From NCBI GenBank assembly GCA_009827225.1, contig WUAI01000030.1, positions 1-40,674 of the forward strand: a DNA stretch of 40,674 nucleotides. Reading direction: 5' to 3'. The position numbers were made by a program, and so were the translations under genes. The notes beneath the pieces are model-generated. The model saw nothing but the letters and a program-made list of their open reading frames with translations. It ran no database searches and had not been told where the DNA came from. Position 1 is the first letter of the stretch, and each line of letters starts with the position of its first letter. Of this stretch, positions 11,963-20,409 are shown in pieces. This DNA is from Flavobacteriaceae bacterium (GTDB lineage: Bacteria > Bacteroidota > Bacteroidia > Flavobacteriales > Flavobacteriaceae).

Positions 11963-14500
11963 ATGACAAAGAACTACCTTGCATTTATTGTGTGCCTATT
12001 TATATCGGGGATACTTTCGGCGCAGATTATCAATTTCACCGATCCCAATTTTAAGCAGAATTTGTTGGATGCCAATCCATCCATTGGCATCGCAGCTGAT
12101 ATTAATGGAGATTTTATCACCATTGACTCGAACGGAGACAATGAGATTAGTATTGCCGAAGCCTTAGAAGTTCATTTATTGAGCTTGGGGCAATACACCT
12201 TTAATGATATGACCGGGATTGAGTTTTTTACAAATTTGAATTATCTCGCCCTGGGTGCCCCGGTACCCCGCCATGACTTAACAACACTGGATGTAAGTGC
12301 CCTTACCAATCTTCAGGAATTATGGTGTCTTGAATCGGGAATTGAAGACTTAAATGTCACGGGCCTTTCCAATTTAACTACACTCATATGTAGAATCAAT
12401 AATTTAAGTGATCTGGACCTTATGGGGTGTAATTCTCTGGAAGTTTTGGACGCATCAAGCAATCAACTAAATTCATTCGATTTTAGCGGTCCGAATTCAC
12501 TTGTAGAGCTTTATGTGAATGACAATCCGTTTACCACGGCAAATCTGAATGCTTTGACAAATTTGACTATTTTTCATTGTGGGGAAGGTGGTTTGGAAAC
12601 GTTGGAGGCAACCGGAGCTGCAAGTTTAACAGAAGTCGTGGCTGCCGTTAGCCCGCTATCTAGTGTCAATATTACGGGACTCTCCAATTTGGAATCGATA
12701 AATTTTTTGAACTGCCAGCTGACCGATTTGGATCTTACCGGTTTAAGTCAACTCGATTTTCTGCAACTAGGGAATAATTCCATCACGTCAATCGATTTTA
12801 GTACCACACCGTTGGTCGAGGGCTTTAATTTACAGAATAACAGTCTTACCGAAATTGACCTCAGTCCATTAAATCTATTGGAATTCGCGATAATTTTTGG
12901 GAATCAGCTCACAGAGGTTAGCACGATGAATAATTCTGTACTCAGTTATTTGGACGTACACGATAATAATTTGCAATATTTATTATTGAAAGACGGAATC
13001 GATTCAGAAGAGATTACACTTCATTTTGGCGGTAATCCTAATATAGAATACATATGCGCTGATTCATTCGAGATTGAATACATAAATGAATTGGCAATCG
13101 ATTATGGCTATTCTGGTTATTTCATCAATACCTATTGTTCATTCGATCCTGGAGGTGAATTCTATGTGATACAAGGCGAGAATAAGTTTGATCCCGATCT
13201 TGATGGTTGTGATACTTCGGACCCTAACATTCCTTATTTTGCTTATGAAGTGACCGGCCAGGATGGAAACGGTACGGTGATCTCAGATGAAACAGGTCAA
13301 TATTCTATCCCTCTACAGGCGGGAGTTTATATGATCTCTCCGCTATTGGAAAACCCTTCCTTTTTCAATGTAAGCCCGGAAACAGTTTCTGTTGATTTTC
13401 CAACAGATCCTAGTCCGTTCGATCAAAATTTTTGCATTGAACCTGAGGGTGTTCACCCGGATGTGGAAATAGTTTTAATTCCTGTAGATCCTGCTGTTCC
13501 GGGATTTGATGCCGACTACCAGTTAATTTACAGAAACAGTGGCAACCAAATATTATCCGGTAGTGTGGATTTTATCTTCGAGGACGAATTGATGGATGTT
13601 GTTGCAACCAACCCTGTTCCCAATTCTCAGAATCCCGGATTTATGACATGGGACTATACGGATTTATTGCCTTTCGAGGTTAGAACAATTGATATTACTT
13701 TCAATATAAATGCTCCAACCGATACCCCTCCAGTGGATGTGGGGGATTTGCTCACTTTTAGCGGTGTTGTAGAGCCTGTTGCTTCGGATGAAACCCCAGG
13801 TAATAACGAAATTGTATTTGAACAGATAGTTGTGGGCCCTTTTGATCCTAACGACAAGACCTGTTTGCTGGGTGAAGCCATTCAGGTTTCCGAGGTGGGT
13901 GATTTTGTCTACTATCTCATTCGATTCGAAAACCTTGGAACTTTTCCTGCACAAAATGTGGTTATCACCGATATAATCGATGAAACCAAATTTGATATTT
14001 CTACTATGATTCCGATTCAGGGAAGTCATAATTTTATAACCAGAATAACCGATAATCTCGTTGAGTTCATATTTGAGGGCATAAACTTACCATTTCAGCA
14101 GGGCTCCAATCAAGGCTATGTATTGTTCAAAATAAAAACAGATAATAATCTTCAAATAGGAGATGTATTTAGCAATTCAGCGAATATTTATTTCGACTTT
14201 AACCTGCCAATTGAAACGAATCTTGCGGAGACAATCGTTGAAGAAAATCTGGCAACCGAAGGATTTGATTTTTTACAAGGAATCTTTGTTTACCCGAATC
14301 CGACTGAATCATTAATTCTATTAAAAAATACTGATGATATCCAGATTCTGAATTTGGACTTCTACAACCACTTAGGACAAAAGATAAAATCTTTTGGATT
14401 ACAGGAAAGTATTGATATTTCTGAATTTGAGAAAGGAGTTTATTTTCTACAAATCAGCTCTAATCGAGGTGACATATTCAAAAAAGTCATCAAAATTTAA
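11963..14500 (+). CDS. T9SS-secreted leucine-rich-repeat protein with C-terminal sorting domain
   Basis: The 845-residue protein has a Sec signal peptide (residues 1-20, ending ILSAQ). Next comes an EF-hand-like acidic segment (DSNGDNEISIAEA, about 56-68), then irregular leucine-rich repeats to about residue 360 with recurring N-LTxLxC and LDLTGL elements. A beta-sandwich region follows (about 395-490), then DUF11/DUF7619-like domains (about 500-765) containing GPFDPNDKTCLLGE and SANIYFDFNLPI. It ends in a type A T9SS sorting domain starting VYPNPTESL. It should be secreted to the cell surface, where such proteins usually mediate binding or adhesion. It has its own terminator, and no partner gene is seen. 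The specific ligand cannot be inferred. Confidence 0.88.
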   Translation: MTKNYLAFIVCLFISGILSAQIINFTDPNFKQNLLDANPSIGIAADINGDFITIDSNGDNEISIAEALEVHLLSLGQYTFNDMTGIEFFTNLNYLALGAPVPRHDLTTLDVSALTNLQELWCLESGIEDLNVTGLSNLTTLICRINNLSDLDLMGCNSLEVLDASSNQLNSFDFSGPNSLVELYVNDNPFTTANLNALTNLTIFHCGEGGLETLEATGAASLTEVVAAVSPLSSVNITGLSNLESINFLNCQLTDLDLTGLSQLDFLQLGNNSITSIDFSTTPLVEGFNLQNNSLTEIDLSPLNLLEFAIIFGNQLTEVSTMNNSVLSYLDVHDNNLQYLLLKDGIDSEEITLHFGGNPNIEYICADSFEIEYINELAIDYGYSGYFINTYCSFDPGGEFYVIQGENKFDPDLDGCDTSDPNIPYFAYEVTGQDGNGTVISDETGQYSIPLQAGVYMISPLLENPSFFNVSPETVSVDFPTDPSPFDQNFCIEPEGVHPDVEIVLIPVDPAVPGFDADYQLIYRNSGNQILSGSVDFIFEDELMDVVATNPVPNSQNPGFMTWDYTDLLPFEVRTIDITFNINAPTDTPPVDVGDLLTFSGVVEPVASDETPGNNEIVFEQIVVGPFDPNDKTCLLGEAIQVSEVGDFVYYLIRFENLGTFPAQNVVITDIIDETKFDISTMIPIQGSHNFITRITDNLVEFIFEGINLPFQQGSNQGYVLFKIKTDNNLQIGDVFSNSANIYFDFNLPIETNLAETIVEENLATEGFDFLQGIFVYPNPTESLILLKNTDDIQILNLDFYNHLGQKIKSFGLQESIDISEFEKGVYFLQISSNRGDIFKKVIKI

Positions 14501-15439: not shown

Positions 15440-15820
15440 ATGAAAACTCAAGACCAAATTATTCATGATGAAATGAGACTGCTCATACACAGGAGCTGTG
15501 AGTTCACAGAAAATCTCAATCGGGATTCTTACGGATTTCAAAAATCTTTACTGAAATTTTATTTTGGAGTAGTGGATGTAACCATCGATTATGACAAGGA
15601 AGAAATCACCCTATATCGAACTAAATCCAGAAAGGATGCCAGAAACAGGCTTTATGATATCAACGAGGCTGGTACGGTGAAAGTGTCTTATGCCAATTTG
15701 GAAGAAACGCTTAAAGGGTGCCTTGAAAGAAGTGAGAAGGATTTGAATTTCTATACCTCACTCTTATTCCATTATCATAAATTCAAACCCGAAAATCAAT
15801 CACATATATTAACCGCTTAA
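15440..15820 (+). CDS. Conserved hypothetical protein
   Basis: The product of 126 residues starts at MKTQDQIIHDEM; an ATG at 15413 would add nine residues without similarity to a signal peptide. It is soluble and of mixed alpha/beta composition, with an acidic N-terminal helix, a strand-rich centre (KFYFGVVDVTIDYDKEEITLYR) and a C-terminal helical part. No family was recognised. It stands alone with a strong terminator immediately after it, so it is expressed on its own. The regular codon pattern, absence of frame interruptions and terminator make it a real gene. No function is proposed. Confidence 0.7.
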   Translation: MKTQDQIIHDEMRLLIHRSCEFTENLNRDSYGFQKSLLKFYFGVVDVTIDYDKEEITLYRTKSRKDARNRLYDINEAGTVKVSYANLEETLKGCLERSEKDLNFYTSLLFHYHKFKPENQSHILTA

Positions 15821-15843
15821 GGTTACTTCAAATAGTAGTTAAG

Positions 15844-15873
15844 TGGAGGCAGCAGTAGCTGCCTCCATTTTTT
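15844..15873 (+). terminator. Rho-independent terminator
   Basis: TGGAGGCAGC (15844-15853) pairs perfectly with GCTGCCTCCA (15858-15867) around AGTA and is followed by six T. Confidence 0.93.
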
Positions 15874-16044: not shown

Positions 16045-19000
16045 ATGAAAAAATTAGTACTCTCACTAGGTCTCGGTATGCTCTTTTTTACCGGATATTC
16101 TCAATTAAGTTACGTTGCAGAACAATATTATAATGGAACCATAAGTGCCAAAGGAGCATTGGATGGAGATAAGCAAACAGGATCCTGGAAATACTTTCAT
16201 GAGAACGGGGAACTCAAGGCCAACGGCTACTATAAAGAGGGCCTTCAAATAGGAGAATGGAAAATGTATTATCCCAACGGAAACCTTCAGGCAAAGGGAC
16301 GATTTGAGAATGGAGAAAAGTCCGGTATTTGGGAATTTTACGAGCTCGACGGAGCGGTAGCCACCGTTGTAAACTATTCCATCAACAATAAAACATTAAC
16401 GAATTACGAGGTCGATAATGTAACCCAAATTGTGCAAATTGGGGAAGAATCGAATACTGAATATGCGTCCGGGGATCTTTCGAATATGGACGAAACTCAG
16501 CAAAAACTAACCCAGGAATTAGAAGCGGCGGAAAATAGCTATTCCCGTCTTAAAAATACCTATGCTAAGCTGGAAGAGCAAAACAATACCAGTTTGGTTT
16601 CCAATAATTCCAATTTCGATGATTCCGGAAACCTCACTACCATGGGGAAGCAATTGGAGAAAGAGGCGGCACGCGTGGATTATTTCAAAAAACAGTTGGA
16701 AGAGCACTTCATCAAGGTTAAAAAACTGGAAGCTATCATTTCCCTGAATAATAAAGCTGCCGGTGAGATTGCGGCTCAAAAAGAAACCGCACTGAAAGAA
16801 TCTAAGCTCAAAGAAGAAGCGTTAAAAGAAGCTGCGATAAAAGAATTGGCGCTACAGGAAAAAGCCAATAAAGAAGCTGCTTTAAAGGAAGCCGCCCTCA
16901 AAGATGCTGCTTTGAAAGAAGCAGAGCTTAAGGAGGTCGCATTGAAGGAGGCAGAACAACGTGAAGCCAGGCTTAAAGAAGCTGCACTGAAAGAAGCGGC
17001 CCTGATGGAAGCCGCTAAAAAAGAGCTCGCGTTAAAAGAAGCTGCATTAAAGGAATTGCAGCTCAAAGAAGAAGCCCAAAAAGAAGCCGAGCTTAAGAAA
17101 GCAGCCCTTGTGGAAGCCGCCTTAAAAGAAGCTCAGTTGAAAGAAATTGCCTTAAAAGAAGCACAACAAAGGGAAGCGGCATTACGTGAAGCAGCCTTGA
17201 AAGAAGCAGCATTGAAGGAAGCTGCATTAAAAGCTTTGGCACTAAAAGAAGCTGAGGAGAGAGAAGCCCGACTTAAGGAAGAAGCACTCAAGGAGGCTGC
17301 CCTCAAAGAAGCCAAATTAAAGGAGATCGCGCTACGGGAAGCCGAAGAACGCGAGGCAAGGCTGAAGGAGGCTGCCTTGAAAGAGGCCGCGCTCAAAGAA
17401 GCAGCTCTGAAAGCATTAGCATTAAAAGAAGCCGAAGAACGAGAAGCACGCCTCAAGGAAGAAGCGTTGAAAGAAGCTGCTTTAAAAGAGGCCAAATTAA
17501 AAGAGATTGCCTTACGTGAAGCGGAACAACGTGAAGCTGCCATGAAAGAAGCTGCATTGAAGGAAGCAGCACTTAAAGAAGCGGCTCTAAAGGAACTGGC
17601 TCTGAAAGAAGCTGAGAAACGCGAGGCTCGTCTTAAAGAAGAGGCCCTCAAAGAAGCAGCCCTAAAAGAATTGGCGATCAAAGAAGCCGAAGAGCGGGAA
17701 AACCGACTTAAAGAAGAAGCATTGAAAGAGGCTGCACTGAAAGAAGCTAAGTTGAAGGAAATCGCCCTGCGCGAAGCTGAACAACGCGAAGCCGCCCTGA
17801 GAGAAGCGGCACTTAAAGAAGCTGCATTGAAAGAGGCAGCGTTGAAAGCATTGGCCTTAAAAGAAGCGGAAGAGCGCGAAGCCCGGTTAAAGGAAGAAGC
17901 CCTCAAAGAAGCCGCATTAAAAGAAGCAGAACTCAAGGAAATTGCACTGCGCGAAACGGAGGAACGCGAAGCTCGATTAAAAGAAGCAGCATTAAAGGAA
18001 GCCGCACTAGCAGAAGCCGCCAAGAAAGAATTGGCATTGAAAGAAGCCGCCGAGCGAGAAGCCCTGCTAAAGGAAGAAGCATTAAAGGAAGCTGCATTAA
18101 AGGAATTGGCGATTAAGGAAGCGGAAGAAAGAGAAGCTCGCTTGAAAGAAGAAGCCCTGAAAGAGGCTACCTTAAAGGAAGCGAAATTAAAAGAGATCGC
18201 GAAACGTGAAGCAGAGCAACGGGAAGCGACTCTTCGTGAAGCAGCATTGAAAGAAGCTGCTCTGGCCGAAGCTGCGAAAAAAGAAATAGCATTAAAAGAA
18301 GCAGCTGAAAGAGAAGCAAGACTTAAAGAAGAGGCACTGAAGGAAGCTGCTCTGAAAGAAGCAAGATTAAAAGAAATAGCCGATCGCGAAGCTGCGATGA
18401 AAGAAGAAGCCTTGAAAGAGGCTGCATTAAAAGAAGCTGCCTTAAAGGAGGCAGCTGCTAAGGAACTGGCTTTGATGGAAGCTAAAAAGCGTGAAGATGC
18501 CTTGAAGGAAGCTGCACTCAAGGAGGCAGCCGAGAAGGAACTCGCCCTCTTGGAGGCAAAGAAACGTGAAGAAGCCTTGAAAGCCGCAGCTGAAAAAGAG
18601 GCGCTCGAGGCAGCCAAATTAGATGAGGCTAAGAAAGAACTGGCGAGACTCGAGGAAGCTAAGAAGGAAGCGGAGAGAATTGAAGCTGCAAGAAAAGAAG
18701 CCGCCCTGGCTGAAGCTGCCAAGAAGGAAGAAGCCAAAAAGGAATTAGCAAGGATAGAAGAAGAAAAGAAGGAACGCGAGAAAGTTGAATTAGCGAAAAG
18801 AGAGGCTGAGATAAAAGAGGCGATCAAGCTCGAAATGGAAAAATTAGAATTGGCTAAAATTGAAGCGGACAAGAAGGCCAAGGCAGCCGAATTGGAAAAG
18901 GCCAAAAAGGAAGAGGCTAAGAAAGAACTAGCCAGGATTGAAGCCGAAAAACTTGAAAAGGAGAGGAGATTGGCCGCCGAAAATGAAGCGGCAAAGCTAA

Positions 19001-19776
19001 AGGCTGCTGAAATGGAAACCAAAAAACTGGCGGATGCCAAAGAAGAATTGGCCCGAATTGAAGCGGAAAAAATTGAAAAAAGATTGAAGGCCGAACAAGA
19101 AGCCAAAAGGCTGGCAGAGGAAAAAGCAGCCGAATTGGCTAGAACAGAGGAATTGAAAAAGAAAGCCGAGGAAGAAGCTTCTAAGAATACGATGTATCAT
19201 AGTGTTGCCAGTGGAGAATTTCTGGGTAAGATTGCCAATAAATACAACGTGAGCGTAAGCGAGATCAAAGCATGGAACAACCTAAGTAATGATAATCTAA
19301 AAATTGGTCAGCAGTTATTGATCAAAGCACTGGAATCCACCACTTCAATAGCGATGGAAGAGGAGGCCAAAGTTGTGCGTATGGAAGATGCTATAAATGA
19401 AGTTACGGTATCGGCCGAATCCTATGATCCCACAGAAAAAATAGGACATTTTGAGAATGGACGTATTAAATTCATACGTGATTTCGCTGAAGGAAAACCT
19501 CATGGGGAATGGAAAAATTATCATTCCAATGGGAAATTGAAGTCGGTCGAAAACTATACCGGTGGTTCGCTCAATGGGAAATGGAGAGAATACTATGACA
19601 ATGGAAAATTGAAGTCCAAAGGAGTCTATGTAAATGGTCAACAAACGGGCGAATGGATTTTCTATCACGAAAACGGGAAACCGAAATCAAAAGGATCCTA
19701 CCACAATGGCACGCAAACAGGCTATTGGTCATTCTTTGATGCTGAAGGTAATAAAGTGGATGAGCGGGTGATTTAG
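16045..19776 (+). CDS. Exported giant helical pentad-repeat protein with MORN-type repeats and LysM
   Basis: The 1243-residue protein starts with a Sec signal peptide (1-19, ending FFTGYS). Residues about 30-115 are MORN/YwqK-type repeats (GSWKYFHENGELKANG and similar). Residues about 148-245 form a conventional coiled coil. From residue 249 to about 858 the chain is an almost unbroken series of five-residue units of the type ALKEA, and an equally charged Ala/Glu/Lys helix continues to about 1047. Residues 1050-1094 are a LysM domain (YHSVASGEFLGKIANKY), a peptidoglycan-binding fold. Residues about 1140-1240 are four more MORN-type repeats. An uninterrupted helix of 800 residues would be about 120 nm long, several times the periplasm width, so it may lie along the cell wall. 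It lacks a lipobox and a T9SS sorting domain. Own terminator; no partner gene. Function unknown. Confidence 0.9.
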   Translation: MKKLVLSLGLGMLFFTGYSQLSYVAEQYYNGTISAKGALDGDKQTGSWKYFHENGELKANGYYKEGLQIGEWKMYYPNGNLQAKGRFENGEKSGIWEFYELDGAVATVVNYSINNKTLTNYEVDNVTQIVQIGEESNTEYASGDLSNMDETQQKLTQELEAAENSYSRLKNTYAKLEEQNNTSLVSNNSNFDDSGNLTTMGKQLEKEAARVDYFKKQLEEHFIKVKKLEAIISLNNKAAGEIAAQKETALKESKLKEEALKEAAIKELALQEKANKEAALKEAALKDAALKEAELKEVALKEAEQREARLKEAALKEAALMEAAKKELALKEAALKELQLKEEAQKEAELKKAALVEAALKEAQLKEIALKEAQQREAALREAALKEAALKEAALKALALKEAEEREARLKEEALKEAALKEAKLKEIALREAEEREARLKEAALKEAALKEAALKALALKEAEEREARLKEEALKEAALKEAKLKEIALREAEQREAAMKEAALKEAALKEAALKELALKEAEKREARLKEEALKEAALKELAIKEAEERENRLKEEALKEAALKEAKLKEIALREAEQREAALREAALKEAALKEAALKALALKEAEEREARLKEEALKEAALKEAELKEIALRETEEREARLKEAALKEAALAEAAKKELALKEAAEREALLKEEALKEAALKELAIKEAEEREARLKEEALKEATLKEAKLKEIAKREAEQREATLREAALKEAALAEAAKKEIALKEAAEREARLKEEALKEAALKEARLKEIADREAAMKEEALKEAALKEAALKEAAAKELALMEAKKREDALKEAALKEAAEKELALLEAKKREEALKAAAEKEALEAAKLDEAKKELARLEEAKKEAERIEAARKEAALAEAAKKEEAKKELARIEEEKKEREKVELAKREAEIKEAIKLEMEKLELAKIEADKKAKAAELEKAKKEEAKKELARIEAEKLEKERRLAAENEAAKLKAAEMETKKLADAKEELARIEAEKIEKRLKAEQEAKRLAEEKAAELARTEELKKKAEEEASKNTMYHSVASGEFLGKIANKYNVSVSEIKAWNNLSNDNLKIGQQLLIKALESTTSIAMEEEAKVVRMEDAINEVTVSAESYDPTEKIGHFENGRIKFIRDFAEGKPHGEWKNYHSNGKLKSVENYTGGSLNGKWREYYDNGKLKSKGVYVNGQQTGEWIFYHENGKPKSKGSYHNGTQTGYWSFFDAEGNKVDERVI
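16789..18620 (+). repeat. Pentapeptide-coding repeat region with a 180-base higher-order period
   Basis: About 120 consecutive five-codon units of the form ALKEA are in strict register. Within them a 60-residue (180-base) super-unit starting ALKAL or ALKEL recurs at 17224, 17404, 17584 and 17839; the last step is 255 bases because five units were added. Copies are nearly identical as protein but differ at many third positions and in Leu, Ala and Arg codon choice. Confidence 0.9.
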
Positions 19777-19807: not shown

Positions 19808-19830
19808 AAAGCCTCCTTTGGGAGGCTTTT
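19808..19830 (+). terminator. Rho-independent terminator
   Basis: AAAGCCTCC (19808-19816) pairs with GGAGGCTTT (19821-19829) around TTTG. The T-run is short (four T). Confidence 0.85.
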
Positions 19831-20001: not shown

Positions 20002-20012
20002 CTTGAGTGTTG

Positions 20013-20409
20013 TGGAGCCGGAGGGATTCGAACCCTCGTCCAAACGTGCCGTTATAAAGCTTTCTACATGCTTAGTTTTTGTTTAAATTTTCGATCGTTT
20101 GCCGGTCAAAAACCACCAACGCACAACTTAGCTTCAATTAATTTTCGAGATCACATCGAAGCCCTGTGAACTCTAGGTTTACTTTTACGAAGCCACTATT
20201 TCCTTCGCCGTAAACCAAGGCAAGGGAGTGACTTCCTGCTTGTCTGCCTTGCAGACCGAGGCATAGTCCTACTATAATTCAGATTATGCAGCTAGGGCGT
20301 AATTATTATCGCCGTTTAAAAAGTGTGAAAAATGAGATTTACGAGCTGTTTCCCAGCGCTCGACATGCTTACATTACAATGAAACCCGCTGTCAAAACCA
20401 GTCGGCCCC
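20013..20409 (-). ncRNA. ssrA: tmRNA (transfer-messenger RNA)
   Basis: tmRNA with SmpB rescues ribosomes stalled on broken mRNA and tags the nascent protein for degradation. On the minus strand the 5' end GGGGCCGACTGGTTTTGAC (from 20409) and the 3' end TTCGAATCCCTCCGGCTCCA (to 20013) form the tRNA-like part. The acceptor stem GGGGCCG/CGGCTCC has six Watson-Crick pairs and one G-U. The T arm is GAGGG-TTCGAAT-CCCTC. The final CCA is not fully encoded (CAA follows the discriminator A), so it must be added after processing. The length of 397 bases is normal. The tag reading frame lies at 20284-20313. A strong terminator follows. Confidence 0.96.
20284..20313 (-). other. tmRNA proteolysis-tag reading frame (GDNNYALAA)
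   Basis: Inside the tmRNA, the frame from GGC at 20313-20311 to TAA at 20286-20284 encodes GDNNYALAA. It ends in the ALAA signal recognised by ClpXP-type proteases. The tag is close to those of other Flavobacteria. Confidence 0.9.

Follow-up and report, generated by a model that had tools for sequence, protein, structure and literature searches.

TolA domain II is a helical spacer that lies in the periplasm between two end domains, and the repeat number of TolA varies between strains of Escherichia coli and changes their stress tolerance (PMC3477136). Helical TolA-II is mainly gamma-proteobacterial, and PorE, a lipoprotein described as combining parts that resemble CpoB, TolB and Pal, has been proposed to tether the outer membrane to the wall in Bacteroidetes (PMC12204202). 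Single α-helices (SAHs, ER/K) typically contain 40 to about 200 residues (PMC5347031), and the longest of those in myosins have about 200 (PMC5378345). Here we describe a giant gene in the window, which is the whole stretch of 40,674 nucleotides from a Flavobacteriaceae contig that was analysed. The central part of its protein is inferred from its sequence to form a long, mostly continuous α-helix of E-A-A-L-K units, carried between a MORN_2 block and a LysM domain.

Domain order and repeats of the giant protein

The gene is a single open reading frame (ORF) of 1243 codons at 16045-19776 on the forward strand, in agreement with the coordinates of the original prediction. Along the 1243-residue protein, a signal-like N-terminus is followed by a MORN_2 block, a linker and neck, the five-residue repeats (pentads), a charged helix, LysM and a second MORN_2 block. 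The protein starts with MKKLVLSLGLGMLFFTGYSQ, in which a signal peptide was assigned by eye, and export, as had been predicted, is probable; Lys2 and Gln20 are invariant across the alignment of 11 proteins, which comprises the window protein and ten orthologues. No Cys was present anywhere in the window protein, and it is therefore not a lipoprotein. The MORN repeats at both ends and the LysM domain of the original prediction were borne out by Pfam, with 77.5 bits for MORN_2 (curated cut-off 29.6) and 52.4 bits for LysM (curated cut-off 20.9). MORN_2 was matched in four stretches, of which only the best, residues 1176-1197, was placed by Pfam, while the N-terminal block was placed by eye. The three W motifs of this N-terminal block were present in all 11 proteins, and AlphaFold2, run on the single sequence, modelled the block as β hairpins at a predicted local distance difference test score (pLDDT) below 50.

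The approximately 120 five-residue units followed by a charged helix were recovered as 120 units at residues 251-850, all in one register, and a charged segment that reached about residue 1040. Glu was found in its fixed place in 113 of the 119 pentads counted, and Leu in 88/119. The hydropathy power of residues 246-880 had its maximum at period 5.00 (103), then 2.5 (50) and then 7, and a super-repeat of 30/60 residues was detected within the pentads (lag identities 0.57 and 0.60). The helix-like run at residues 248-1038 contained 791 residues with zero Gly or Pro, consisting of 27% A, 26% E, 18% K and 16% L, and the net charge of the helix was -17. Across the orthologues, Gly and Pro together numbered 0 or 1 per helix. 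Pairs of the E-to-K/R(i+4) type occurred above shuffles in all 11 proteins (z 4.2 to 17.4), although these counts are not independent of the pentad because the shuffles do not keep it. Charge pairs of the reverse orientation were not enriched in the 11 proteins (z -4.5 to 0.9 at i+4 and -3.4 to 1.4 at i+3), and like charges at i+3/i+4 were at chance or depleted in the four proteins tested. The enrichment is support for a helix, not proof. Together with the composition and the lack of Gly and Pro, it favours the long helix originally predicted. In the AlphaFold2 model of residues 20-330, also made from the single sequence, helices were formed by residues 146-186 and 199-329, the latter continuous, with pLDDT mostly 71-89 and down to 53 at the cut end.

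Relatives were sought with an N-terminal profile in 397 genomes of the family at a threshold of 1e-25. Five genomes matched, the source genome included, and only four of these are real since G024 carries a short MORN protein. The architecture was found in 7/7 genomes of genus g198 and 3/4 of genus g102, giving ten relatives from two other genera. Nine genomes of the genus to which the window belongs were searched with the tail, four of them with completeness of 90% or more and contamination of 5% or less, and the LysM-MORN tail turned up in the source genome alone. The parts stood in the same order in all 11 proteins, each of which was matched by Pfam MORN_2 and LysM, so that the predicted architecture is conserved and a wall-binding domain, as judged from family membership, is probably common to all. 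One protein (G690) was cut by a contig end in the last MORN block. An order-level search matched 2/346, namely the source genome and a 116-residue MORN protein. A pentad query of 296 genomes of the phylum matched only the source genome and a true pentapeptide-repeat protein, and such repeats may escape the first search pass. Plasmid records matched by the tail numbered 27, the best place in each being below 60% identity and one covering at least 80% of the query. A scan of genome contigs returned five loci, one for a 423-residue MORN protein (L016) and four matching the LysM part only (L017-L020). A contig of the relative G081 (L080, 1-2712) carried an ORF of at least 903 residues that consisted almost wholly of MORN_2-like repeats by eye.

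The ten complete proteins were 1243, 894, 805, 1172, 864, 883, 946, 720, 1130 and 898 residues long. Their ends were nearly constant (neck start 215-224, LysM to end 187-217), and the helices, delimited by composition in all 11 proteins, measured 807, 443, 322, 721, 408, 434, 504, 245, 691, 444 and 587 residues. The repeats themselves look old. At 11 lags within the window array, amino-acid identity was 0.55-0.73, and synonymous codons at identical residues agreed at 0.41-0.48, where random codon use expects 0.42-0.44. The DNA of lagged repeats was 53-63% identical, and the best pair of 90 nucleotides 81%. Synonymous sites are thus apparently saturated, which suggests that the pentad pattern has been maintained in the protein over a long time. 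A recent DNA expansion or an assembly artefact was rejected on the near-random synonymous codons and on the same order of parts in 10 other genomes. An antisense ORF of 657 residues (17133-19106, reverse strand) probably does no more than shadow the repeat codons, and shorter ones lie under the arrays of the orthologues.

Proposed function and rival readings

We give about an even chance to the reading that the protein is a semi-flexible helical tether, located outside the cytoplasm and anchored to peptidoglycan, with a mode of action like that of TolA domain II. The signal-like N-terminus would export the protein, LysM would bind the wall as its family does, and the N-terminal MORN_2 head, joined via the coiled-coil neck, would bind a partner or oligomerise. 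Between the head and LysM, a long α-helix with a contour of 37-121 nm depending on the species (245 to 807 residues) would link points of the wall, or the wall and the outer membrane, over a distance set by the repeat number. The periplasm is a few tens of nm deep, and since the contour exceeds this depth in most cases, such a helix must bend or follow the wall. Taking the published persistence length of about 15 nm (PMC5347031), we computed root-mean-square end distances of 26-56 nm for these contours; the ends of the 121-nm helix would lie about 56 nm apart on average. Among the roles originally suggested, that of a ruler, if its length is meant to be fixed, is disfavoured because the helix varies in length among orthologues and would bend, so that a spacer or spring would be the better description. 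Contours and end distances of this size fit a semi-flexible tether along the wall, perhaps one that acts as a constant-force spring (PMC4183817).

Several points weigh against this tether reading. In addition to the dependence of the charge-pair counts on the pentad, the structure prediction was only partly favourable: the helix at 199-329 was continuous, but a single-sequence model of 1200 residues had a mean pLDDT of 51.7, and its long helices were interrupted by unassigned stretches, e.g. residues 440-510. Neither model was matched by Foldseek at 0.001. The neighbouring genes do not suggest an envelope role. Ala and Leu make up 43% of the window helix, and helices designed to contain more Ala and less charge were seen to form dimers or multimers, while K-to-E(+4) pairs, the reverse of the orientation seen here, may be more stabilising in short peptides (PMC5347031); the claim of a confidently single helix is weakened by both. 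In the late array of G372, the power exceeded that of shuffles at 3.32 and at 3.75, values that correspond to 30/9 and 30/8 of its repeat, and the signals of G109 (3.52) and of the late array of G205 (3.75) lay just below the 95% level. Harmonics of the 30/35-residue repeats could account for these extra peaks, as could weak seams.

Such seams would fit helices that form a stiffer multi-stranded rod, either as coiled coils or as bundles rich in Ala, with the neck holding them together, an arrangement we regard as possible but doubtful. It is favoured by the 3.75 component of G372, by the multimers of the designed helices and by the neck, whose hydrophobic period in the window protein was 3.46 with a power of 7.7 (shuffle 95% level 5.6); the same test on 44 residues of the neck of G205 was not significant (3.6 vs 5.8). 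An OmpA-domain lipoprotein encoded elsewhere in the genome (L008, 1351-2304; OmpA domain by family search) has a coiled coil with which residues 133-233 aligned at 34% identity over 102 residues. The E-value was 7e-10 for that single comparison and the profile probability 96.6%; coiled-coil composition can inflate scores of this kind, but the aligned stretch ends in a LEAII motif common to both. Similar matches to the neck only were found in 9/25 genomes searched, within frames of 321-346 residues. Against multi-stranded helices, a strict five-residue repeat forms no continuous face on an α-helix, and no signal of 3.2-4.2 residues was above shuffles in the pentads or the late helix of the window protein.

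The variation of helix length between species also recalls the published Periscope concept (PMC8201768), under which the protein would be a surface projector of variable length with its MORN head outside the cell. This is unlikely, as no type IX secretion system (T9SS) sorting domain was matched in the protein by Pfam or NCBIfam and it has no lipidation Cys. Periscope arrays are moreover reported to be tied to high DNA identity (PMC8201768), whereas the lagged repeats here reach the 53-63%, and the best pair the 81%, given above.

A fold of the pentads as a pentapeptide-repeat (Rfr) right-handed β-helix was suggested by sequence searches in NCBIfam, Pfam and PDB, all of which name pentapeptide repeats. 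Pentapeptide_4 scored 108 bits (2.5e-31, cut-off 38) in the window protein, not far below the 120 bits that a true member, L106, reaches, and PF00805 scored 35 bits, above its cut-off of 20.2. The phmmer matches included solved PDB chains, which we take to be pentapeptide-repeat proteins, and also IcmE/DotG. Some stretches are compatible with such a fold; in G205, for example, 17 clean pentads follow one another. The β-helix is nevertheless quite improbable and was rejected on its core positions, on composition (no Gly or Pro in 791 residues) and by comparison with L106 as the true control. With positions i and i-2 scored in the register that most favours Leu at i, polar or charged residues occurred at i or i-2 in 38/119 pentads of the window protein, 8/29 and 46/57 of G205, 32/61 of G109, and 12/42 and 63/66 of G372, against 0/63 of the control. 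An aliphatic or aromatic residue at i with a small one at i-2 was found in 62/119 pentads of the window protein, 17/29 and 10/57 of G205, 24/61 of G109, and 17/42 and 3/66 of G372, against 63/63 of the control. PF00805 gave 370 bits in the control; at a threshold of 0.001, Pentapeptide_4 matched 7/11 orthologues and PF00805 2/11. The control showed neither E-to-K(i+4) enrichment nor the reverse, and the low-confidence 1200-residue model (mean pLDDT 51.7) placed no strand in the pentads but helix and unassigned coil. Strong Pfam pentapeptide-repeat scores can mislead on pentads of Ala, Leu, Lys and Glu. A histone H1-like (HC2) DNA-binding protein, although HC2 was matched in 11/11 orthologues (1.5e-13 in the window), has practically no chance of being right and was rejected on the net charge of -17 and the predicted export with LysM, the match reflecting the Lys/Ala composition in common.

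Features and neighbourhood of the locus

Features of the giant gene and its surroundings, in coordinates of the window
Feature	Position	Strand	Basis
126-residue protein, neighbour	15440..15820	+	next upstream ORF in 8/11 loci
Terminator-like hairpin, 13 pairs, between the 126-residue gene and the giant gene	15841..15870	+	hairpin scan
Export signal, residues 1-20	16045..16104	+	sequence, by eye
N-terminal MORN_2 block, residues about 26-103, limits by eye	16120..16353	+	Pfam MORN_2
Coiled-coil-like neck, residues about 150-245	16492..16779	+	hydrophobic period; likeness to OmpA-domain lipoprotein
120 pentads (KEAAL type), residues 251-850	16795..18594	+	register count, hydropathy period
Charged Ala/Glu/Lys helix without strict pentads, residues 851-1040	18595..19164	+	sequence, composition
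LysM, residues 1052-1094	19198..19326	+	Pfam PF01476, 4.9e-14
C-terminal MORN_2 block, residues about 1127-1243, limits by eye	19423..19773	+	Pfam MORN_2
tmRNA gene, downstream neighbour	20012..20409	-	

Two thioredoxin-like genes, a T9SS-tailed gene, two rhodanese genes and the gene of the 126-residue protein were found upstream of the giant gene, and a transfer-messenger RNA (tmRNA) gene and an alanine-dehydrogenase-like gene downstream. The product of the T9SS-tailed gene (11963-14500, forward strand) has leucine-rich repeats, DUF7619 and a sorting tail of T9SS type A, and this tail fits the likely origin of the window in the Flavobacteriaceae; no ORF like it was present at the equivalent place in L021, L022 and L104. 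With ORFs of 100-110 residues or more considered, the 126-residue gene was next upstream in the window, L021, L022, L121, L122, L124, L126 and L127. In L104, a gene that we take from its sequence to be asnA-like stood between it and the giant gene; in L125 a presumably asnA-like gene lay upstream, after which the stretch ended, and in L123 the upstream gene was presumably ketoacyl-synthase-like. The 126-residue protein matched no Pfam or NCBIfam family above cut-off, and its gene was present in 33/299 genomes of the family at 1e-6. Of 18 further neighbourhoods of this gene, six were read, one of them cut short by a contig end, and no ORF of the giant architecture was seen in these six. In L053 and L059 the small gene, the tmRNA and the alanine dehydrogenase were consecutive and the giant gene was absent, so that the giant gene appears to be a clade-limited extra at a conserved site.

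The tmRNA lay downstream in all four stretches examined (window, L021, L022 and L104), in some with genes between. Its tag reads GDNNYALAA in the window and GENNYALAA in L021, L022, L053, L059 and L104. The giant gene is probably transcribed alone. The scanned hairpin upstream is weak as a match alone because sites of this kind number 17 in the region and 7.9 in shuffles; a second hairpin with a short T run was seen by eye at about 19808-19830 and is absent from the scan listing.

Meaning and comparison with known systems

If the helix is real, it would be an EAAAK-type helix of natural origin with several times the length of typical SAHs, kept by selection in old repeats and changing in length between species around constant ends, and the control of spacer length in the envelope would become testable in a phylum in which tol-pal loci are reported missing and PorE is proposed as one tether. 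A bolder and rather improbable extension is that the protein represents a hitherto undescribed class of mechanical strut, bound to the wall, in a Bacteroidota-like family. As a chimera it would join MORN_2 heads, a neck of the OmpA-lipoprotein kind, LysM and an evolvable helix that reaches up to about 120 nm, and it would spread load along the wall or couple the outer membrane to it. We found no description of the MORN-helix-LysM-MORN architecture in the open-licence literature.

Designed EAAAK linkers resemble the unit found here, which read in another phase is EAALK with E-to-K at i+4. The present array differs from them in being natural, in its about 120 units, in the Leu that replaces one Ala and in its super-repeat of 30/60 residues. 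Like SAHs, the helix lacks Gly and Pro, has many pairs of opposite charge spaced at i+4 (at i+3 in some orthologues) and shows no coiled-coil period in the window pentads, the late array of G372 being ambiguous; it differs from SAHs in reaching up to 807 residues by composition and in having more Ala and Leu.

With the OmpA-domain lipoprotein of the same genome, the window protein has only the coiled-coil neck in common; Pfam matched no OmpA and no lipid-attachment Cys was present in it, and LysM may take the wall-binding role. PorE is alike in its proposed role of tethering the outer membrane to the wall, but no CpoB-, TolB- or Pal-like parts were matched in the window protein by Pfam and NCBIfam. 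Periscope proteins share the setting of length by repeat number and are arrays of folded domains (PMC8201768), whereas a helix with near-random synonymous codons is present here.

In its way of working the protein comes closest to TolA domain II, a helical periplasmic spacer between end domains. The giant protein is not a member of the TolA family as judged by sequence, no TolA or TonB family being found in it at 0.01 by Pfam and NCBIfam. The TolA helix is shorter, and in place of the C-terminus of TolA the window protein carries LysM and MORN_2.

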